Part shown: positions 9,406 to 42,233 of the stretch, one piece after another
How positions within the stretch are numbered: the stretch's first letter is position 1
Layout of the letters: every line of letters begins with the position of its first letter
From: a virus
IMG/VR virus record: IMGVR_UViG_3300033143_001731
Span: 1-43,531 of that record
DNA: 43,531 bases
Direction: 5' to 3' (one strand)
Notes under the pieces: model-generated
The model's input: only the letters and a program-made list of their open reading frames with translations
What the model was told of the DNA's origin: nothing
Database searches by the model: none
Translations under genes and position numbers: made by a program

Positions 9406-9438
9406 GGTTGTGACTGAAAACGGTTTTCGGTCACAACC
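9406..9438 (+). terminator. Long hairpin after holin-like gene
   Basis: A near-perfect inverted repeat: 16-nt arms (9406-9421 and 9423-9438) differing by one G-U pair, with the effective loop at AACGGTT. It starts 9 nt after the stop of the holin-like gene. There is no downstream T-run, so it may be an RNA-stability or attenuator hairpin rather than a classic intrinsic terminator. Confidence 0.55.
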
Positions 9439-9618: not shown

Positions 9619-9951
9619 ATGAAAAAATCAAGCAAAAAATACGACATCAAATGTGATGACTGCAAATGTGTAATCGGTGAAACGGATGACATGACTGCAA
9701 GTCTTGCGGGCGGTCTGTGCGACGAATGCAAGCGGAAGAAGGACACCCGCACCAGTGGTGATGATCTTCTGAATTCGGAACTGACAAAATCATTAAAAGG
9801 GTTAGAGCTTACAATAAAAAGTTTGCAGGAAGCATTAAAGATTTGCAGTAGTGTTGAGGGAATTATAATTCTTGATCTGATTCGGAAATCAAGAGAATTT
9901 GAAATCGCAACAAACGGTCTTCTGTATGCACACAAAAATGATAATGCATAA
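9619..9951 (+). CDS. Zinc-knuckle hypothetical protein
   Basis: A 110-residue protein with CDDCKC and CDECKR spaced about 30 residues apart near the N-terminus (zinc ribbon), followed by a long amphipathic helix region (TKSLKGLELTIKSLQEAL). The ATG at 9619 has a strong AAGGAGAG ribosome site; an ATG at 9580 would add 13 residues. Unusually for this window, the ribosome site and the second half contain GAG triplets, hinting that this part came from elsewhere. First gene after the promoter. Confidence 0.7.
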   Translation: MKKSSKKYDIKCDDCKCVIGETDDMTASLAGGLCDECKRKKDTRTSGDDLLNSELTKSLKGLELTIKSLQEALKICSSVEGIIILDLIRKSREFEIATNGLLYAHKNDNA

Positions 9952-11038: not shown

Positions 11039-11061
11039 AAAAGACTTGCAATTGTCTTTTT
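11038..11061 (+). terminator. Intrinsic terminator
   Basis: AAAAAGAC (11038-11045) pairs with GTCTTTTT (11054-11061) across an 8-nt loop TTGCAATT, ending in a T-run. It begins at the stop codon of the upstream gene. The loop also supplies the -35 box of the next promoter, so termination and initiation are superimposed. Confidence 0.65.
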
Positions 11062-11101: not shown

Positions 11102-11299
11102 ATGGAATGGACAGGACTTGAATTCATGAACGATATTGTCAAGCAATATGCGGGTGTTCCGCAGACAGAAAAACGACGGGAAGTCCTTGAACCAGATGTT
11201 TTCTGCGCAAAGTGCGGTGATTTTCTGGGAATGACCTGTGATCCTTTTATCACTGACTGCAAAAAGTGTTTCCCAGACACGGAAGGGGGCACGGCGTGA
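11102..11299 (+). CDS. Zinc-knuckle small protein
   Basis: A 65-residue protein with CAKCGDFL and CDP...CKKCFP, four to five Cys in zinc-ribbon spacing at the C-terminal half. First gene after the 11046 promoter, with CGGGGTG as ribosome site. Function unknown; it may bind host proteins or nucleic acid. Confidence 0.65.
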   Translation: MEWTGLEFMNDIVKQYAGVPQTEKRREVLEPDVFCAKCGDFLGMTCDPFITDCKKCFPDTEGGTA

Positions 11300-12836: not shown

Positions 12837-13184
12837 ATGACAGACAAAGAAAAACATTTCATAGCGGTCAGGGATGACATGCACGGCGGAATCGTGGACA
12901 GGGACGCCCCGATCACAATCATGTGTTCGAAGTGCAAGACAGAACTATACACATCAAAACTTTCATTGAATGATCTTGAAGGAAAAACAATTCAACCCGA
13001 CGCATTTGATGCGATAGGGGATCAAACATGTTGTGAATCTGGGAAGTCGCCCCCGTCCTGTCACGTCTGCGGGTCGGTCTGGTTGGGCGTTGTTCATGGA
13101 TACGGCAAACTTGTAATTAGCACGACACAGGGTCTTTTCACATATGGTCATTTAAAAGACGGAAGGGGGCACGAAATAAAATGA
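12837..13184 (+). CDS. Zinc-ribbon hypothetical protein
   Basis: A 115-residue protein with CSKCKTEL (about 32-39) and CCE...CHVCGS (about 70-85), a split zinc ribbon. The start at 12837 is set by a GGGGGCAC-type ribosome site; a longer frame from 12786 lies inside the previous gene. The stop overlaps the deformylase start by 4 nt, so the two are co-translated. Confidence 0.65.
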   Translation: MTDKEKHFIAVRDDMHGGIVDRDAPITIMCSKCKTELYTSKLSLNDLEGKTIQPDAFDAIGDQTCCESGKSPPSCHVCGSVWLGVVHGYGKLVISTTQGLFTYGHLKDGRGHEIK

Positions 13185-13681
13185 CAGATAAAATCATAAC
13201 CGATCAAGATGCACTGCGGGTTGTATCAAAACCGACAACGATTCAGGAAGTCAAAAAACTTGATCTTCTGAACAGACTGCGGGAAGCAATGCGGGGATCA
13301 TGGACGCACGGGTGCGGACTGGTAGCAATCCAGATCGGGATTCCCCTGCGGTTCGGGTTCTATGTCTTTGAACAAAAAGAATACATTCTTTTCAATCCTG
13401 AAATCGTTTGCACGCAGGGATCATTCAAGGCGAAGCAGGAAGGATGTTTATCAATCCCGAACAACTATGTCCGAAAAAAAAGATGGTATAAAGTGAAGTA
13501 CACAATGGACGGTTATGGCATGACAAGACAGTATGTTGCGAAAAATTTCAAAGGGCGAATCGTTCAACATGAAGTCGATCACATGAACGGGATTCTGAAC
13601 ATCGACGAAGTTAATCAGGTCAAGATCGTTGGTATAAAAAATAAAAAGCTGAAACGATCACGGGGAAATTGCAAAGGATGA
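13181..13681 (+). CDS. def: Peptide deformylase
   Basis: A 166-residue enzyme removing the N-formyl group from nascent proteins. All three family motifs are present: GCGLVAIQIG (44-53, for GxGLAAxQ), EGCLS (87-91) and QHEVDH (129-134); metal ligands are Cys89, His130 and His134, with catalytic Glu131. It should be active. Phage deformylases are known from marine cyanophages and vibriophages and may supplement the host enzyme during massive virion synthesis. AAGGGGGCAC precedes the start. The C-terminus is short and basic. Confidence 0.92.
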   Translation: MTDKIITDQDALRVVSKPTTIQEVKKLDLLNRLREAMRGSWTHGCGLVAIQIGIPLRFGFYVFEQKEYILFNPEIVCTQGSFKAKQEGCLSIPNNYVRKKRWYKVKYTMDGYGMTRQYVAKNFKGRIVQHEVDHMNGILNIDEVNQVKIVGIKNKKLKRSRGNCKG

Positions 13682-14825: not shown

Positions 14826-15529
14826 TGGCACAAAAAAAGAAATCCGTCAAAAAAGCATTGAAGAAAACGCCTTCCAAAAAGACCGCAAAAAAAAAGGTGC
14901 AGAAGAAGACTACGTCAAAGAAGAAACCGCAGAAGAAAAAACCAAAAAAGAAACCGAAGATTCTGAACGCACGGGAAAAGAAGTTCGTCAGCGAAGTCGT
15001 CAAAGATGATAATGCATATCAAGCGGGAATCCGTGCGGGATATACTGAACGAACCGCACACGGCAGATGTTCGAACTGGGTTGCAAAGGATCGGAAGTCG
15101 TGCCCGAAAAACAAATTGCATGTCTGGGACGCCGTGCAGAAGAAGCGTGAAAAACTACTGGAAAAAACGGACATGGATTCAGTGGAAGTCCTGAAACTGA
15201 TTGCAACGGTCGCACGGTTCGACATCAGAAAACTTTTCAACGAAGATGACACAATGAAGAAAATCACGGAACTGGATGATGAAACTGCATTCGCATTGTC
15301 TTCCGTTGAAATCGTGCAGAATGTTCTTGCGGGTAACAAAAAGAAAATGAACATTTCAGAGTTCGTGAAGAAGGTCAAAACAAATTGCAAAATGAAAGCA
15401 CTTGAACTGATGGGAAAGCATCACAAATTGTTCGTGGACGTTCAGGAAATCGTTCCGGCGAAGGGCGGGAAAATGCTTCAAGTCACATATGTTGATGCAG
15501 AAAATGGAAAACCGAAAAAGGATGCATGA
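14825..15529 (+). CDS. terS: Terminase small subunit
   Basis: A 234-residue packaging protein. After a Lys/Ala-rich N-terminal extension (residues 1-47, almost half Lys), the domain starting LNAREKKFVSEVVKD..AYQAGIRAGYT matches the Terminase_2 small-subunit family, with the helix-turn-helix that recognises the pac/cos site, followed by helical oligomerisation segments. It precedes the large subunit with a 4-nt overlap, the normal order. The basic extension is unusual in length and may add non-specific DNA binding. Confidence 0.85.
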   Translation: MAQKKKSVKKALKKTPSKKTAKKKVQKKTTSKKKPQKKKPKKKPKILNAREKKFVSEVVKDDNAYQAGIRAGYTERTAHGRCSNWVAKDRKSCPKNKLHVWDAVQKKREKLLEKTDMDSVEVLKLIATVARFDIRKLFNEDDTMKKITELDDETAFALSSVEIVQNVLAGNKKKMNISEFVKKVKTNCKMKALELMGKHHKLFVDVQEIVPAKGGKMLQVTYVDAENGKPKKDA

Positions 15530-16722
15530 CCAGTCCAGAACCCCAGATCATTCCCTGTTCGATCCCTTCAAAATTCAGATTCCTGTCCGAGCCTATGCGT
15601 TACAAAGGCGCATATGGCGGACGGGGATCAGCAAAGTCAAGATCGTTCGCCCGTGAACTTCTGATTCAGGGCAGTCAACGTTCTCTGAAAATTCTTTGCA
15701 CACGGGAATTCCAAAAAAGCACAAAAGAATCTGTCAAGGCATTACTTGAAAACGACATCGAACGTCTGAACATTGGGTCTGAATTTCAAGTTCTTGGAAA
15801 TGAAATCCGTGGATACAACGGAACGCAGTTTCTTTTTGCGGGACTGCGACATCATCCGCAAGCAATCAAATCGATGGAAGGAATTGACATTGCGTGGATG
15901 GAAGAAGCAAACACCGCAAGTCAGACATCACTTGATTTTTTAATCCCGACCGTCCGTGAAGAAAATTCAGAAATCTGGTTCACATATAATCCGCACCTGA
16001 TCACCGATCCGATTCACAACATGTTCGTTGTGAACAAACGTCCTGATTCATATATTCAGCAAGTCAACTACATGGACAACCCGTTCTTCCCCGAAGTCCT
16101 TCGCAAAGAAATGGAATGGTGCAAGGAACATGATTTTGAAAAATATCTTCATGTGTGGATGGGTGAAATTGTCAAACTTGCGAAGTCGATCGTCTTTTCG
16201 GGACGGTGGCGCACGGCAAATTTCGAAGCACCCGAAGGGACGGTGTTCTATTATGGCGCAGACTGGGGGTTTGCGAACGATCCGACCATCCTTGTCAGAA
16301 TGTTTGTTGACAATTATAAAAGAATCATATATGTGGATTATGAAGCATATGGGATCGGCGTTGAAATCGACGACACGCCCGATCTTTTTGACAAAGTGCC
16401 CGCATCCCGCAAGTGGAAAATCACTGCGGATTCGGCACGACCCGAAACGATTTCATATATGAATCGGCACGGGTTCAAGTGCAAGGGTGCGAAGAAGGGT
16501 GCGGGAAGTGTTCTTGAAGGCGTCGAGTTTTTAAAGTCATACGACATTGTCGTTCATCAAAGATGCAAACATGTCATTGACGAATTAAAAACATATTCAT
16601 GGAAGGTCGATCCATTGACAAACGAAATCCTGCCGATTCTGGTTGACAAGAAAAATCACATAATTGACGGTATGAGATACGCACTTGAAAATGTGCGAAA
16701 ATCTTCAAAGGTCTTGACATAG
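15526..16722 (+). CDS. terL: Terminase large subunit (PBSX type)
   Basis: A 398-residue packaging motor and nuclease. Walker A GGRGSAKS (31-38), Walker B IDIAWMEE (120-127) and the coupling region LIPTVREENSEIWFTYNP (139-156) form the ATPase. The RNase H-like nuclease has acidic residues in YYGADWGF (D246), TADSARPE (D302) and HIIDGMRYAL (D381). Length and motif order fit the PBSX/Terminase_3 family, most of whose members package headful, though this cannot be read from the protein alone. It ends just before the structured RNA element at 16767. Confidence 0.95.
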   Translation: MTSPEPQIIPCSIPSKFRFLSEPMRYKGAYGGRGSAKSRSFARELLIQGSQRSLKILCTREFQKSTKESVKALLENDIERLNIGSEFQVLGNEIRGYNGTQFLFAGLRHHPQAIKSMEGIDIAWMEEANTASQTSLDFLIPTVREENSEIWFTYNPHLITDPIHNMFVVNKRPDSYIQQVNYMDNPFFPEVLRKEMEWCKEHDFEKYLHVWMGEIVKLAKSIVFSGRWRTANFEAPEGTVFYYGADWGFANDPTILVRMFVDNYKRIIYVDYEAYGIGVEIDDTPDLFDKVPASRKWKITADSARPETISYMNRHGFKCKGAKKGAGSVLEGVEFLKSYDIVVHQRCKHVIDELKTYSWKVDPLTNEILPILVDKKNHIIDGMRYALENVRKSSKVLT

Positions 16723-16766
16723 CGTGGTGAAAAATGAAATCATAAAACAATATAAAAAATAAAAAT

Positions 16767-16845
16767 CTTGCAGACGCCGACGGGCACTGCAAATTTAATG
16801 AATTAAAAAAGGGATTCGGGTGCATCTGCACGGAGTCCCTTTTTT
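16767..16845 (+). ncRNA. Structured RNA element, copy A (hairpin plus terminator)
   Basis: First of two related elements. TTGCA (16768-16772) pairs with TGCAA (16788-16792) around a loop containing CCGACGGG. After a short spacer, A6-GGGATTC (16805-16817) pairs with GAGTCCC-T6 (16833-16845), enclosing an inner GTGCA/TGCAC hairpin. The second half has intrinsic-terminator form. The copy at 23017 keeps the loop and fold while the stem bases differ. It lies between terL and the next gene, whose ribosome site follows directly. Confidence 0.65.
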
Positions 16846-16865
16846 CTTTGACGAAGGGGGAAAAA

Positions 16866-17186
16866 ATGAAATCAGGCAACCCGCCCGAACGAGTCACAAA
16901 CACAGTCAGTTCAGTAGCATTCGGAACAAACTATTTCAAAGCGTCAGGGGATTTTGATCTTCTGTTTTATGGTGCAGGACTGGGAACTGTATCGATTGAA
17001 AAATCGATCATTGATCCCGCAGGATCACCCGAATGGAAGGAAATTCAGGAATACACCGCAGACGGAACACCGCAGGACTATCCCGCATACGAACCCGCAC
17101 TTGCGTGGTATCGCATCGGGTTCAGTGCGCACACGTCTGGGGAAACAGTGTTTGTGTTCAGTAAAATTTCACGGGGTATTTCATAA
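16866..17186 (+). CDS. Hypothetical, possible virion-associated protein
   Basis: A 106-residue, probably all-beta protein. VSSVAFGTNYFKASGDFDLLFYGAGLGTVSIEKS-type strands and a W..IQEYTADG turn resemble short beta-sandwich proteins often encoded near phage fibre or head genes. Ribosome site GAAGGGGG. It sits directly after RNA element A and before the BspA-repeat proteins. Function unknown. Confidence 0.7.
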   Translation: MKSGNPPERVTNTVSSVAFGTNYFKASGDFDLLFYGAGLGTVSIEKSIIDPAGSPEWKEIQEYTADGTPQDYPAYEPALAWYRIGFSAHTSGETVFVFSKISRGIS

Positions 17187-17198
17187 CAGGGGGACGAT

Positions 17199-19379
17199 GT
17201 GGGCAAGCTAAGTCCTATTTTCAGGGGTGGAATATTTAAAGACCTCGGACGATCCCGTCATGAAGGAATTTTCCGTGACGGTCTTTTTCGGGGTGGAATT
17301 TTTCTTGACAATTTTGCGGGTGCTGAATTCATCTTCACAGTCACCACGGCAGGGGCGGACACATTCACACTTCCGCTTGAAGCCGTCGGGGATTATGATT
17401 TTGAAGTTGACTGGGGTGATGACAGTTCCGATGTGATCACAGTCTGGAATCAGGCGGAAGCAACACACAGCTATTCAGGCGCAGGAACATTCACCGTCAC
17501 AATTCAGGGTGTCATCAAGGGTTTCAGGTTCAATGATTCAGGCGACAAAACCCTGATCGACGAAATTCAGAACTGGGGTTCTTTACAATTCAACGACACA
17601 AACGGTTTTTTCTTCGGGTGTTCAAATTTGACCATCACTGCAACAGATTCGATCCCGCTTGCAGGACTGACAACATTGTTGAATGTATTTCAGGACTGCG
17701 CATCCATTGTTTCAATTCCGAATCTTAATGTGCTCAACACATCTTCCGTGATAATATTGGAAGGGGTGTTTCAGGGTTGCACATTATTCAATCAGAACAT
17801 CGGCGCATGGGATGTTTCAAATGTTACGAATATGGCGTTGATGTTTTCCAGTGCGCCCGCATTCAATCAGGACATCAGTGGATGGAACACAGGAAATGTT
17901 TCTTCATTCAGAAACATGTTTGTCAGTGCAACATCATTCAATCAGGATATTAGTGGGTGGAATACTGAAAGTGCGCAGTTGATGCAATTCATGTTCTGGG
18001 GTGCAACTGCATTTGATCAGAACATCGGCGCATGGGATATCGGTGTTTGTACCAATATGTCAAATATGTTTTTCGGTGTCACACTTTCAACCGCAAATTA
18101 TGATTCAATTCTTCGTGGTTGGGAAGGTCAACCGCATAATGGACTTGTTTTTCATGGTGGTAATTCAAAATATACAAAGGGTTCTTTATCTCATACGGCA
18201 CGAATTAATTTGACGACAGCCCCCGACACATGGACGATCACGGACGGCGGAATGGCGGGTGATCTGGCATTCAAATTTGAAGTGACTGTGGCGGGTGCGG
18301 GTGATGATTTAAAATTCACACTTCCACTTGAATCAAGCGGAACATATGATTTCAATGTTGACTGGGGTGACAGTTCCGATGATGACATCACAGTCTGGAA
18401 TCAAGCAGAAACGACGCACGCATTTGCGGGTGCGGGAACATATGATGTCGTGATCACGGGACAGTGTGAAGGATGGAACTTCGACACGAACAATCAATTC
18501 GGCAGTGATGACAAACTTGAAGACATCAGCAACTGGGGAACATTGTTGATTGATGACACGCAATATAATTTCTTCGACTGTGACAATATGACTGTTTCTG
18601 CAACAGACTATTTGATTCTGCAATATCAGACAGACATGACAGGCATCTTTGAATCGTGTGATTCTTTGACAGGTATTCCCGCAATGAGCAGTCCCCCTGA
18701 CAATCGATGGGACTGGTCGTCAATTTTAGACACGACGGGGATGTTTGATAGTTGCGTCCTGTTCAATCAGGAAGTCGATTTGAACACCGAAAATTGTCTT
18801 GATTTCACATGGATGTTTTTCGGGAATACTGCATTGAACTCGGTGATCACACTTGATCTGACCAGTGCGACCAGTATTGAATCAATGTTCGAAGATTCAA
18901 CCAGTTTCAATCAGGCGTTCGGTAGCAGTTCACCCGATCTGATTGACGCAAGATATGTTTTTTACAATTGCAGTGCGTTCAACAGTGATGTGAATCTTAC
19001 ATGGGAATCAATTCTGTCTATTCGTCAAATGTTTTTTGCAACAAGTTTCGACAGGGCGATTGATTTTGATTTAAGGACGACAGGTGTTGCGAACATTGAC
19101 GCACGGGGCGTCTTTCAGAACACACCCTTGAACAGTGCCGTCACAATTACTGTTCACAGGGTCACGCAAATGGATGATTTTTTCACGGGATGTGTCAGTC
19201 AGTCTGTTGCGAATTGGAGTAATTTCTTGATTGATTGTGCAGGTCAAATTCCATCAATTCAAAGCGGGGTTCAGCTTGATGCAGAAGCACAGCACAATTC
19301 AGGCGGAACGACTGCGATTGCATCGCTTTCGATTCCCCCGTACAATTGGATCATAACAGATGGGGGGCTGTCACCATAA
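17199..19379 (+). CDS. Large BspA/DUF285 leucine-rich repeat protein
   Basis: A 726-residue protein with GTG start after CAGGGGG. It has two related halves (about 43-350 and 354-726). Each half starts with a beta-sandwich, PKD-like domain (F.LPLE..G.YDF.VDWGD, then VWNQAE.TH....G.G), continues with DUF285 repeats of the type FNQDISGWNT...NMF, and ends in a W.ITDGG motif. DUF285/BspA repeats mediate adhesion and ligand binding in bacteria. No signal peptide, so it is probably carried in the particle or acts in the cell. Location between terminase and portal is unusual. Confidence 0.85.
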   Translation: MGKLSPIFRGGIFKDLGRSRHEGIFRDGLFRGGIFLDNFAGAEFIFTVTTAGADTFTLPLEAVGDYDFEVDWGDDSSDVITVWNQAEATHSYSGAGTFTVTIQGVIKGFRFNDSGDKTLIDEIQNWGSLQFNDTNGFFFGCSNLTITATDSIPLAGLTTLLNVFQDCASIVSIPNLNVLNTSSVIILEGVFQGCTLFNQNIGAWDVSNVTNMALMFSSAPAFNQDISGWNTGNVSSFRNMFVSATSFNQDISGWNTESAQLMQFMFWGATAFDQNIGAWDIGVCTNMSNMFFGVTLSTANYDSILRGWEGQPHNGLVFHGGNSKYTKGSLSHTARINLTTAPDTWTITDGGMAGDLAFKFEVTVAGAGDDLKFTLPLESSGTYDFNVDWGDSSDDDITVWNQAETTHAFAGAGTYDVVITGQCEGWNFDTNNQFGSDDKLEDISNWGTLLIDDTQYNFFDCDNMTVSATDYLILQYQTDMTGIFESCDSLTGIPAMSSPPDNRWDWSSILDTTGMFDSCVLFNQEVDLNTENCLDFTWMFFGNTALNSVITLDLTSATSIESMFEDSTSFNQAFGSSSPDLIDARYVFYNCSAFNSDVNLTWESILSIRQMFFATSFDRAIDFDLRTTGVANIDARGVFQNTPLNSAVTITVHRVTQMDDFFTGCVSQSVANWSNFLIDCAGQIPSIQSGVQLDAEAQHNSGGTTAIASLSIPPYNWIITDGGLSP

Positions 19380-20488
19380 TGGCAATTACTATCCTTGAAA
19401 AAGAATATGCAGGGGAAACTTATTATGAAATGGCATCAGATGCGCTTTGTTATCGGTTCACATATTCGGGGGGTGTCGTCAAGTCATTTTGGGAATCAAA
19501 CGGAATCACCACGTCTGGATTCAATTTATATGCGGGCACACTGGCGGAATGTCTTGCGGAAATGTCAAGCAAAGGACTGACCCCGATCACACCGACCCGA
19601 TTGTCGTTCGAATGTATTGTTGATTCTGGTGCGGGAAAAAGTTTTCAACTTCCCCTTGAATCCGGTGGAACATATGATTTTGATGTCTGGACAAAAAAAA
19701 CCACAGACAAGGAATTTCTGGGTGATCCTGTTAGTATTGACACATGGAATCAGGCGGAAACCGATCTGTCGTTTGATGAAGACGCATCCTATAATATCAA
19801 GATTGAAGGCACAATCAAAGGTTTCAGATTCAACAATGGTGGTGACAAAAGCAAGTTGTTAAATATTCAAAGTTGGGGTTCTTTAAATCTTGGAAATAAT
19901 AACGGGTATTTTTACGGATGCAACAATCTGATTGTCACAGCTTTTGACAAACTTGATCTGACCGACACTACAACATTTTATCGGGCGTTCAGGGATTGCG
20001 CCAGTCTGACCAGTTTCATTGATGGATGGAATTGCATGGACACATCAAGCATCACAAACATGTATCAGGCATTCAGGGGTTGCACGAATTTCAATGCCGA
20101 CATCAGTGGATGGGATGTTTCAAGTGTTACAGATTTCACAAACATGTTTTCACTGTGTTCCGCATTCAATGTCGACATCAGTGGATGGGACACATCGAGT
20201 GCGACGACATTCATGGGGATGTTCAATGCGTGTGTTGCTTTTGATCAGGATATCAGTGGATGGAATGTCGAAAGCGTCACGGACATGGCGTTGATGTTTA
20301 ACGGTGCGACATTGTCGACAGCAAATTATAATCCGCTTTTGATCGCATGGTCGGCGCAATCAGTTCAGTCGGGTGTGACTTTTTCTGCGGGTTCAAGCAA
20401 ATATGATTCAGGTGATCCCACAACTGCACGGGCGGTTCTGGTCGGTGCACCGAACAACTGGACAATCACAGACGGGGGACAAGTGTGA
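19379..20488 (+). CDS. BspA/DUF285 leucine-rich repeat protein
   Basis: A 369-residue protein with three parts: an N-terminal domain (1-70, with CYRFTYSGGVVKSFWESNG and AECLAEM), a beta-sandwich unit (about 75-160, F.LPLESGGTYDF.V) and DUF285 repeats (FNADISGWDVSSVTDFTNMF and relatives), ending NNWTITDGG. It is the third copy of the unit found twice in the preceding gene. The N-terminal domain recurs alone in the next gene. Start at 19379 overlaps the previous stop by 1 nt. Confidence 0.85.
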   Translation: MAITILEKEYAGETYYEMASDALCYRFTYSGGVVKSFWESNGITTSGFNLYAGTLAECLAEMSSKGLTPITPTRLSFECIVDSGAGKSFQLPLESGGTYDFDVWTKKTTDKEFLGDPVSIDTWNQAETDLSFDEDASYNIKIEGTIKGFRFNNGGDKSKLLNIQSWGSLNLGNNNGYFYGCNNLIVTAFDKLDLTDTTTFYRAFRDCASLTSFIDGWNCMDTSSITNMYQAFRGCTNFNADISGWDVSSVTDFTNMFSLCSAFNVDISGWDTSSATTFMGMFNACVAFDQDISGWNVESVTDMALMFNGATLSTANYNPLLIAWSAQSVQSGVTFSAGSSKYDSGDPTTARAVLVGAPNNWTITDGGQV

Positions 20489-22111: not shown

Positions 22112-22906
22112 ATGCTTTCAGTATCGCAACAACTACAACTGAAATTCAAACTGGAACGATCTTTCAAACCTGACATCCGTTCCGTGTTCAATTCTATGTT
22201 GCAGGATTTTCGAATCGCAGTGTCGAAATTTGGTCAACCACTGGCGTCCGACACATATTCATCGTCATGGGAAGCAATTCTTGATAAGCACTATCGCAAA
22301 GTGCAAAAAGCGTTCACCGATGTCGGCATTCAAAAATCACTGATCAAACAACCAGAAGACGAAGACGACATCGACGAAGAACTGTTCATCCTTGCGTTGA
22401 TGACATATCGTGATCAGATGGTCAAGAAACAGACCCAGTTCATCGTCAACACGAACATCAATCAGATGCGGGACGCCGTCAGAATCGCACGTCTGGAAGC
22501 AGTGCGGGAAGGAATCACACTGACTGACACAGAACTTGCACGCAACGCAACTGCAATTCTGAAACGAAAGTTCAAACCCCGTGTCAACAGCATTGCAATG
22601 CAGGAAACTGAAACCCCTGCGGAAGCAACAAAATTTATCGACGCCGAATCACAATCCGGTCTGCGCCCGTCGGTTGTCGGGGGTGGTGGTGTTGCAACCC
22701 AGACGCAAAAAAGTTGGCGAAACGCAGGGGACAGTCGTGTCAGAACGGGACAATTCGATCACGTCACACCCGAAGGACAGACGGTCAATCTGCTTGATCC
22801 CTTCATTGTCAGCGGCGAACAGTTGATGTTTCCGAAGGACACGTCACTGGGTGCAAGTCAAGGGAATGTGCAGGGGTGTCGATGTATTTCAATTTATGTG
22901 TTGTAA
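22112..22906 (+). CDS. Minor head protein, MuF/SPP1 gp7-like
   Basis: A 264-residue head-morphogenesis protein. The C-terminus (KSWRNAGDSRVRTGQFDHV, then LLDPFIVSGEQLMFPKD, then NVQGCRCIS) is the MuF C-terminal signature: an arginine-rich W-R loop and a final CRC. Such proteins are packaged in the head near the portal and influence DNA exit. The N-terminal 150 residues are helical. It is followed by an AT-rich intergenic region holding RNA element B. Confidence 0.85.
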   Translation: MLSVSQQLQLKFKLERSFKPDIRSVFNSMLQDFRIAVSKFGQPLASDTYSSSWEAILDKHYRKVQKAFTDVGIQKSLIKQPEDEDDIDEELFILALMTYRDQMVKKQTQFIVNTNINQMRDAVRIARLEAVREGITLTDTELARNATAILKRKFKPRVNSIAMQETETPAEATKFIDAESQSGLRPSVVGGGGVATQTQKSWRNAGDSRVRTGQFDHVTPEGQTVNLLDPFIVSGEQLMFPKDTSLGASQGNVQGCRCISIYVL

Positions 22907-23016
22907 TTTTTAAAACAATGATATATAGAGTATTTTATAAGATTGAAAGCACAACATGCAGGGGTCGGAAAAATGTGAAATTATAAGATAAAATAATAAC
23001 ATACAAATAAAAGTGT

Positions 23017-23099
23017 CTTGCATTGACCGACGGGGATTTGCAAGTTCAACGAATTGAAAAAGGGGACATCGGGTGCACCCGCAACGATGTCCCCTTTTT
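23017..23099 (+). ncRNA. Structured RNA element, copy B (hairpin plus terminator)
   Basis: Second copy. CTTGCA (23017-23022) pairs with TGCAAG (23039-23044) around a loop with the same CCGACGGG seen in copy A. A5-GGGGACATCG (23057-23071) pairs perfectly with CGATGTCCCC-T5 (23085-23099) around a TGC/GCA inner hairpin. The outer stem bases differ from copy A yet pair, which supports a selected RNA fold. It precedes the prohead protease gene. Confidence 0.65.
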
Positions 23100-23122
23100 C
23101 TTTTGCACGAAGGATGATTCCC

Positions 23123-24205
23123 ATGACAAGCACACATCAGAAAATCGAAAAAATGCAATATAAAACAATCCCGATCACGGACATGAAGATCATTGATGAT
23201 AAAGAAAACGGGAAGTTTTATATCACGGGATATGCGAACAATAAAAATCAACCCGATTCATATGGTGATATTCCGACGAGCTTCGAAAATAAACCCGTTT
23301 ACATCCTTGACCGGATGAATAAAAATCCCGTTGCATTTGTCGATCACAGATCATCAGCGTCAAACATTGCGGGAAACTTTGTTGAATTGAAGGAAGACGA
23401 AAAAGGTCTGTTCTTCAAATTGCTATTGCGCCCGCTTGATGAAATTCACAATCCCCTGACAAAAGATGCAGTGTCTGCGTTCATGACTGGATTCGGGCGT
23501 GCATTTTCAATCGGCGGGGAATGGTTTTTCGAAGATCATGACAACCCGAACAATCTGACAAAGGCATTCATCTATGAAATCTCACTGGTCGGGATCGGTT
23601 CGGACGCCGACGCACTGGGTGACACACCCCGTCCGAAACACCTGAAACATCTTCCCCCTGCTTTTTCTGACCTTCCCATTGCAAGCAAAGACACACCGTG
23701 GAGTCCGTCAGACGCCCTGAAACGGGTTCAGACATGGATCGACGGTGAATCACACCAGAACGCAGAAACAATCGAAGGGAAGTCACGTCAGGCGTTTTTC
23801 CTGAAAGATGCAGAATCAACATCAAAACTTCTGTTCACAGACATCATTGACGGCAACTTGACCGCAGTTCCACGGGGAATTTTTTCTGCGGGCGCAGTTG
23901 TTGCAAGTGGAAAAATCAAAATGACCGATGAAGAACGTGTGTGCGTTGTTGTGCACCTTGAAAAATATTACAAGAAAATGAACCTTGAATCCCCGTTCAA
24001 ATCTGGCGGGGCGTTCAGGGTCGAAAATATTGCAGACCTTGACGCACGAACACTTGAACGTGTGATGCGGAACGGTGTCAGTGTGGACAAGGCGACTGCG
24101 GTGAAAATCGTTTCACTTGTCAAATCGTTGTTGCAGGGTGATCCTGCACAGAACGATCAGGGTGATCCTGATGGTGACGACTGGAACAAATTCTGGAAAA
24201 AATAA
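23123..24205 (+). CDS. Prohead protease (HK97/U35 type) with C-terminal scaffold-like region
   Basis: A 360-residue maturation protease. GYANNKNQPDSYGD (36-49), catalytic His75 in AFVDHRSS, catalytic Ser129 in AFSIGG and E152 in YEISLVGIG match the herpes/HK97-type protease fold. Residues about 190-330 (KLLFTDIIDGNLTAVPRGIF, then HLEKYYKKMNLESPF) form a second region found in other phage protease/scaffold fusions. It would cleave the capsid protein delta domain and itself. Start at 23123 follows GAAGGA. RNA element B lies just upstream. Confidence 0.88.
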   Translation: MTSTHQKIEKMQYKTIPITDMKIIDDKENGKFYITGYANNKNQPDSYGDIPTSFENKPVYILDRMNKNPVAFVDHRSSASNIAGNFVELKEDEKGLFFKLLLRPLDEIHNPLTKDAVSAFMTGFGRAFSIGGEWFFEDHDNPNNLTKAFIYEISLVGIGSDADALGDTPRPKHLKHLPPAFSDLPIASKDTPWSPSDALKRVQTWIDGESHQNAETIEGKSRQAFFLKDAESTSKLLFTDIIDGNLTAVPRGIFSAGAVVASGKIKMTDEERVCVVVHLEKYYKKMNLESPFKSGGAFRVENIADLDARTLERVMRNGVSVDKATAVKIVSLVKSLLQGDPAQNDQGDPDGDDWNKFWKK

Positions 24206-24236: not shown

Positions 24237-25460
24237 ATGACTGAACTTATTATTGAAGGCAAAGACGGCAAGAAATACACGCCGAACGAACTGGTTCTTG
24301 CAGTTGAAACATTGCAGGGTGACTTGAAGGAAATGCGGGAAGATTCGCATGACCGCAAGGAACTGGAAATCAAGTTGAACGCCGCACTGGATGCGCAGGA
24401 AGAACACAACACTGATCTGGTGAAACAGATTGAAACCGAACGCAAAGCAAACGAAGACCTGACAGAAACTGTGAAAGCAGTTGAACTTGAAATCGCACGC
24501 AAGGTCAACACCGTCGGCACAGGATACAAAGACACTGCCGAATATAAAGCCTTACAGAAATGGTTTCAGGGCGGATTGAAAAAAATGGACGCAGATGAAG
24601 TCAAAGCACTGCGGACGGATGACGACACTGCGGGCGGGTATCTGACGACCACAGAGTTCGACACCGAACTTCTGAAAAACCTGACCGAAATTTCCGCAAT
24701 GCGTTCCGTGGCACGGATCAAGATCATCGGTGAAAAATCATTGACCATTGCAAAGCGGTTGACGATTCCGACCGTGTATCATGAAGGCGAAACCGAAGAC
24801 ACCGTAGTTTCACAGTCTTCCTATGCATCAGAACAGTTGATTCCGTTCCGTCTGTCATGTGCAATCCCTTACACGCATGACGAATTGCAGACATCTGTTT
24901 TCAATCTTGAAAATGAAATCAGGGGTGACGCAAATGAAGCATTCGGGAAACAGATGGGTGAAGATTATGTGAAGGGGACGGGCGTGAAAATGTCCGAAGG
25001 TTTCACAGTCAATGCGGATGTGCTCACTGCAAAAACCACTTCCGAAGCGTCTGGGGCTATTTCCGCAAAGGACTTGACCCTGATGACTGGCGAACTGAAA
25101 GCGGGATATAACCCGATGTATGGATTCAACCGCAGAAGTCTTGCACTGTTCAGAACTCTTGAAGACGGTGCAGGTCGTCCGATCTGGCAAATGAATTTAG
25201 GCGGAAGCGCCCCGAACCAGATCAACGGCGAACCATATATAATCCTTCCTGACATGGCAGACATTGCAGGAAATTCACTGTCTGTTGTGTATGCCGATTT
25301 CATGCGGGGATACAGGATCGTGGATCGTGCGGGTCTGGTCATCATCCGTGACGAAGTCACACTTGCAGGACAGGCAATGATCAAAATGTATTTTCACAGA
25401 TGGACATATGGTCAAGTAGTTTTGGCAGAAGCGATTCATATTATGGCAACAAAGGCATAG
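24237..25460 (+). CDS. Major capsid protein (HK97 fold)
   Basis: A 407-residue capsid subunit. Residues 1-100 are helical and charged, the delta/scaffold domain removed by the protease. The rest is HK97 fold: AGGYLTTTEFDTELL, FRLSCAIPYTHDEL, then YGFNRRSLALFRTLEDGAGR...W and GEPYIILPDM (P/A-domain strands), ending in a VLAEAIHIMATKA tail. AAAAGGAAC precedes the start. A strong hairpin at 25511 follows the gene, suiting high expression of this unit. Confidence 0.92.
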   Translation: MTELIIEGKDGKKYTPNELVLAVETLQGDLKEMREDSHDRKELEIKLNAALDAQEEHNTDLVKQIETERKANEDLTETVKAVELEIARKVNTVGTGYKDTAEYKALQKWFQGGLKKMDADEVKALRTDDDTAGGYLTTTEFDTELLKNLTEISAMRSVARIKIIGEKSLTIAKRLTIPTVYHEGETEDTVVSQSSYASEQLIPFRLSCAIPYTHDELQTSVFNLENEIRGDANEAFGKQMGEDYVKGTGVKMSEGFTVNADVLTAKTTSEASGAISAKDLTLMTGELKAGYNPMYGFNRRSLALFRTLEDGAGRPIWQMNLGGSAPNQINGEPYIILPDMADIAGNSLSVVYADFMRGYRIVDRAGLVIIRDEVTLAGQAMIKMYFHRWTYGQVVLAEAIHIMATKA

Positions 25461-25510: not shown

Positions 25511-25534
25511 CGCCCCGCATTGATTTGCGGGGCG
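25511..25534 (+). terminator. Strong GC hairpin after capsid gene
   Basis: CGCCCCGCA (25511-25519) pairs with TGCGGGGCG (25526-25534) across a 6-nt loop. Only a short T-poor tail follows, so it may act as a partial terminator or an mRNA-stabilising hairpin between the capsid and decoration genes. Confidence 0.65.
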
Positions 25535-26022: not shown

Positions 26023-26062
26023 ATTGTCCCCGACGGATGTTCGCATCCGTCGGTGTGACAAT
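26023..26062 (+). terminator. UUCG-capped hairpin after decoration gene
   Basis: CCGACGGATG (26030-26039) and CATCCGTCGG (26044-26053) form a 10-bp stem closed by a TTCG tetraloop, the most stable natural RNA loop. ATTGTC (26023-26028) pairs with GACAAT (26057-26062) to extend it past a small internal loop. No T-run; probably a transcript-end or processing barrier. Confidence 0.65.
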
Positions 26063-31492: not shown

Positions 31493-31523
31493 CGGGCGGG
31501 CGGGTGTTCCCGTCTGCCCGTTT
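31493..31523 (+). terminator. Intrinsic terminator-like hairpin after tail tube
   Basis: CGGGCGGGCGGG (31493-31504) pairs with CCCGTCTGCCCG (31509-31520) with two G-U pairs across a TGTT loop, then TTTAATAATAA. A GC-rich stem and short T-run make it a likely partial terminator between tube and chaperone genes. Confidence 0.7.
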
Positions 31524-42196: not shown

Positions 42197-42233
42197 AAAA
42201 CGCCCGATCTTTTCGACTTTGATCAGGCGTTTT
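42197..42233. terminator. Bidirectional intrinsic terminator
   Basis: AAAACGCCCGATC (42197-42209) pairs with GATCAGGCGTTTT (42221-42233) with one mismatch around an 11-nt loop, giving an A-tract on one side and a T-tract on the other. It sits between the end of the late + operon and the convergent - strand operon and can stop transcription from both. Confidence 0.75.

Follow-up and report, generated by a model that had tools for sequence, protein, structure and literature searches.

Two paralogous copies of a hairpin-terminator leader, a probable attenuator, in the late operon of a myovirus

Genomic setting of the two copies

Why would a phage carry the same short structured element twice in its late operon, each time directly ahead of a ribosome site? 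The window analyzed here is a 43.5-kb IMG/VR virus record whose gene content indicates a myovirus with Mu-like baseplate/tail genes. An earlier note had placed hairpins of one design at 16767-16845 (copy A) and 23017-23099 (copy B), and both the letters and the coordinates are confirmed here. The surrounding genes are arranged as follows.

from 14825: terS
15526-16722: terL
16866-20488, + strand: block behind copy A, a 106-aa ORF and two DUF285 proteins, between terL and portal
17199-20488: the two DUF285 proteins
from 20664: portal gene, beyond the DUF285 block
22112-22906: MuF-like head morphogenesis gene, upstream of copy B
23123-24205, + strand: prohead protease gene, behind copy B
24237-25460, + strand: major capsid protein gene, behind copy B

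Copy A precedes the 106-aa ORF, the two DUF285 proteins, the portal and the MuF-like gene, and copy B precedes the prohead protease and the major capsid protein, which broadly agrees with the earlier suggestion that the element coordinates two head-gene blocks. The 106-aa ORF (ATG at 16866) has no family match, and the first DUF285 protein has an additional weak PKD match. Since terL and portal are adjacent in MW202613 and in the Xanthomonas phage PBR31, the block behind copy A looks like an insertion between these two genes. Duplication of B may have placed copy A ahead of the inserted block, an order of events that we infer. The phage also encodes a peptide deformylase (13181-13681), and an A-/T-tract hairpin at 42199-42233, where the rightward late genes end, is probably a bidirectional terminator.

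Architecture of the leader

Both copies comprise an AT-rich upstream stretch, a first hairpin (H1), a linker, a terminator-like hairpin (H3) and a ribosome site.

16714-16766, + strand: AT-rich stretch of copy A, beginning over the terL stop and similar to the upstream stretch of copy B
16767-16792, + strand: H1 of copy A, TTGCA/TGCAA hairpin with a CCGACGGG loop
16794-16807, + strand: linker of copy A, TTTAATGAATTAAA, with a possible weak hairpin TTYAA-YGAA-TTRAA that overlaps the A-tract
16805-16845, + strand: H3 of copy A, putative intrinsic terminator hairpin AAAAAAGGGATTC..GAGTCCCTTTTTT with apical TGCATCTGCA
16854-16868, + strand: Shine-Dalgarno AAGGGGG, 8 nt past the U-run, and the ATG (16866) that starts the 106-aa gene
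22956-23016, + strand: AT-rich stretch of copy B, aligning with that of copy A
23017-23044, + strand: H1 of copy B, CTTGCA/TGCAAG hairpin with a CCGACGGG loop
23045-23058, + strand: linker of copy B, TTCAACGAATTGAA
23057-23099, + strand: H3 of copy B, putative intrinsic terminator AAAAAGGGGACATCG..CGATGTCCCCTTTTT with apical TGCACCCGCA
23110-23125, + strand: Shine-Dalgarno AAGG, 10 nt past the U-run, and the ATG (23123) that starts the prohead protease gene

H1 is a short stable hairpin of 26 to 28 nt, with folding z-scores of -3.7 and -3.8 in the two copies, and the linker on its own has a folding energy of 0 kcal/mol in A and -0.4 kcal/mol in B, with one compensated pair between the copies. 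H3 folds far more strongly (z of -6.4 in A and -6.5 in B), and in both copies it consists of paired A-/U-tracts and a GC-rich stem based on GGG/CCC, capped by a common apical hairpin, TGCAYCYGCA, and followed directly by runs of U6 and U5. By its anatomy, H3 is an intrinsic terminator; that it stops the polymerase is what we infer from this anatomy. The end of the U-run lies 20 to 23 nt from the start codon in the two copies. A kissing loop between CCGA of H1 and UCGG of H3 was considered and rejected: UCGG sits inside the H3 stem, and the two copies share no pairing between loops. Inspection of the folds likewise showed no alternative antiterminator pairing common to A and B.

The upstream flanks are unstructured (folding z of about 0). 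They carry a three-codon frame, ATGAAATCATAA in A (16734-16745) and GTGAAATTATAA in B (22975-22986), which may encode a very short leader peptide, belong to a promoter or have arisen by chance in such AT-rich sequence. In another part of the window, a small T-run hairpin containing CTTGCAA (AAAAGACTTGCAATTGTCTTTTT, 11039-11061) lies upstream of the gene at 11102.

The copies as one duplicated unit

The strings CTTGCA..CCGACGGG and TCGGGTGCA are each present at exactly two places in the window, on its + strand. Local alignment of A with B scores 168, against 81±6.5 in dinucleotide shuffles, and the next-best part of the window reaches at most 107.5 in the same comparison, which bears out the proposal that the element is duplicated. 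The similarity is spread over the parts, with scores of 32 for H1 (16.2±2.7 in shuffles), 51 for H3 (21.8±3.8), 55 for the AT-rich upstream stretch (41.6±3.2, equaled by 1 to 8 of 2,000 shuffles) and 26 for the segment from U-tract to start codon (15.1±2.6). The linker is less similar, 46 of 2,000 shuffles being equally good. By this comparison, A and B are paralogues, and because H1, H3, the upstream stretch and the U-run-to-start segment each exceed their shuffles, we take the duplicated unit to be about 145 nt long, running from the AT-rich stretch through H1, linker and H3 to the ribosome site at its end.

Within this unit, neither the stem and loop of H1 nor the greater part of the H3 apex differs between the copies, and neighboring bases have diverged. 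This pattern argues in favor of selection; with only two copies compared, a fairly recent duplication could likewise account for it.

Covariation and homologues

The stems had been described as covarying, and this compensation had been read as the mark of a selected RNA of no named class. Compensation is literally present: in the MAFFT alignment of A and B, both partners differ in 2 of the 28 pairs (column pairs 32-41, U-A/C-G, and 53-73, U-A/A-U). No pair changed in H1, however, and the level of covariation is reproduced in 129 of 500 shuffles. Standard pairs fill 98.1% of pair cells in the two-sequence alignment, compared with 38 to 57% when the partner is slid. When H3 is aligned slightly differently by hand, the copies differ by an A-T/G-C swap, a U-G/C-G change and an inserted pair. 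Stem pairing is required of any intrinsic terminator, so compensation in H3 is no argument for a special RNA. A new covarying RNA class is therefore not supported by these stems, and the two copies are better described as leader terminators, probably functional.

No independent homologue was found in IMG/VR scans for the element pattern and for TerL or in genome scans, which covered exact patterns or sampled genomes. A single further copy in IMG/VR lies on a 5.2-kb contig that is 100% identical to the window; the other pattern matches that were inspected fell in coding sequence, arose by chance at high GC or belonged to unrelated structures, and the element-pattern genome scan gave no homologue among the matches listed. 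BLASTN of both copies against phages, and of B against plasmids, returned short fragments or nothing. Rfam gave no gathering-score match anywhere in the window, and at 16700-16900 the sub-threshold matches are to unrelated families only.

A covariance model built from A and B, the kind of search that the earlier note had proposed, was run on 41 related viral records and on sampled genomes of two phyla (395 and 398), and found only generic or chance terminators. Matches at 24.7 and 15.2 bits are two generic phage terminators, and an antisense terminator in the window itself reaches 27.8 bits. The match at 36.4 bits is a bacterial terminator in which a UGCAUCUGCA apex occurs by chance; the part of this match that corresponds to H1 overlaps the end of an ORF whose sequence resembles an RNA-binding protein.

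In relatives with TerL 39 to 56% identical, the element is absent after terL and other sequence continues there; in the sampled genomes, where the best TerL is 56% identical, another open frame lies closely 3' of terL and the element is lacking. The opposite possibility that had been raised, unrelated terminators with neither homologues nor conserved loops in relatives, thus holds for the terminase relatives, which lack the element, but not for the two copies, which are related to each other. Distant or unsampled relatives may exist. A short search of open papers yielded no direct precedent. The element is made of parts of a known kind (a hairpin, an intrinsic terminator, a leader), and as a pair it has no relative in the searches run.

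Attenuation and its alternatives

The 8 to 10 nt between the U-run and the Shine-Dalgarno sequence are too short for a promoter, so the genes behind the copies would need read-through, and we therefore favor an attenuator as the likeliest reading. The leader/attenuator option had been raised before, and we arrive at it from a full terminator placed just 5' of the ribosome site. We consider it probable that A and B represent a single leader cassette in duplicate and that each acts as an attenuator between cistrons of the late (head) operon. Polymerase would arrive from upstream (the terL side for A, the MuF side for B) or from a weak local promoter, transcribe H1 and then meet H3 as a strong terminator. 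A fraction of polymerases would halt there and the remainder would read into the next block, reaching the 106-aa, DUF285 and portal genes behind A and the protease and capsid genes behind B; by position, the capsid gene too would be reached through the terminator. H3 would in this way lower, or conditionally release, expression of the next block, and H1, copied together with the terminator, would probably tune H3 via pausing, protein contact or RNA stability.

The A-tract, GC-rich stem and U-run of H3 in both copies favor attenuation, as do the GC-rich hairpins in three other late intergenic gaps. So does the reach of the similarity, which takes in the entire leader up to and including the segment with the ribosome site, as it would if a control cassette had been copied. 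On the other side, portal, protease and capsid genes lie close together, about 40 nt apart or less, in six annotated phages sampled by capsid similarity, so leaders of this kind are no general rule; a phage-modified polymerase might also ignore terminators entirely. If the attenuator reading is true, the window holds a natural two-copy experiment, with the same leader ahead of two blocks, and the phage brings an added block, that of the DUF285 proteins, under late control through a copied leader. The pair is most likely a stop-or-go brake that sets head-gene output. Its parts are ordinary. H1 could serve as a recognition site contacted by a phage protein, a host protein or the polymerase itself, in a lineage-specific antitermination or attenuation system whose regulated leader was copied before a second block for the same control; this more specific idea we regard as unlikely.

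A fairly unlikely explanation is that the hairpins are passive, duplicated stem-loops that guard or process mRNA ends with no regulatory function, H1 merely hitchhiking. The three late-gap hairpins (25511-25534, 26030-26053 and 31493-31520) are strong and have no U-run, as passive stem-loops might, and no homologue supports maintenance of H1 by selection. Full A-tract/U-tract terminators, in contrast, are limited to A and B, and the constancy of the H1 loop and stem beside diverged bases is not what hitchhiking predicts. The hairpin at 26030-26053 contains CCGACGG, like the H1 loop.

That same constancy of H1, set against a changing H3 stem, would also suit an antitermination target, with H1 (together with the linker) serving as a nascent-RNA site like HK022 put or nut through which polymerase passes the adjacent and perhaps later terminators. 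The presence of two related copies per phage is also shared with HK022, which has two similar put RNAs (PMC9378689). We nevertheless think this quite unlikely: H1 is short, followed immediately by a terminator and located in a late operon, while put is longer and sits behind early promoters; there is no Rfam match at gathering score, and no antiterminator gene was recognized among the ORFs scanned.

Two paralogous small RNAs of about 80 nt, transcribed from a promoter in the AT-rich stretch and ending at H3, would account for the size, the terminal U-run, the conserved loops and the conserved upstream stretch. The upstream stretch of copy A, however, offers only a weak sigma-70-like site (TTGACA-N18-AATCAT, 10/12) and that of copy B none, promoter matches in the region are at chance density (28 found, 28.4 expected), a consensus promoter is present elsewhere in the same phage (9546-9573), and the ribosome site is part of the unit, which fits a leader better; small RNAs are very improbable. 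The consensus promoter, TTGACA-N16-TATAAT, follows a strong hairpin at 9406-9438 and precedes the gene at 9619. Hardly probable at all is a riboswitch or autogenous protein-binding leader with H1 as sensor and H3 as expression platform: the aptamer-then-terminator layout directly 5' of a ribosome site is there, but H1 is small, neither homologues nor a gathering-score Rfam match were found, and inspection of the folds showed no consistent alternative pairing of H1 with the terminator arms that both copies share.

Comparison with known systems

Three known systems bear on the attenuator reading. In HK022, the put RNA is about 70 nt long, with two long stem-loops, lies behind early promoters and acts on distant terminators (PMC9378689). 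The likeness is that one phage carries two similar structured RNAs with a bearing on termination; in the window, by contrast, a single short hairpin of 26 to 28 nt stands next to its own terminator in a late operon, with a linker that barely folds alone, so the element does not belong with put. T7-like phages such as LUZ100 have a strong terminator right behind the major capsid gene, which is controlled by a local phage promoter (PMC10134795). There, too, a late-region terminator bears on capsid gene expression, but it lies behind the capsid gene, and in the window it sits ahead of the genes, within their leader.

The closest layout is that of PBR31, whose TerL is 49% identical to that of the window and which carries ordinary terminators 25 to 28 nt before its scaffold gene, its major capsid gene and the following gene. 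In both phages, the terminator ends shortly before a late-gene start codon (20 to 28 nt overall) and read-through is needed. The PBR31 terminators look unrelated to one another and to A and B, and they have no H1-like hairpin bearing the same loop, whereas the window repeats one leader. Terminators before late genes would thus be an arrangement that recurs without sequence homology, which speaks for attenuation, and by its sequence PBR31 provides a precedent for a layout that is not unique to the window.
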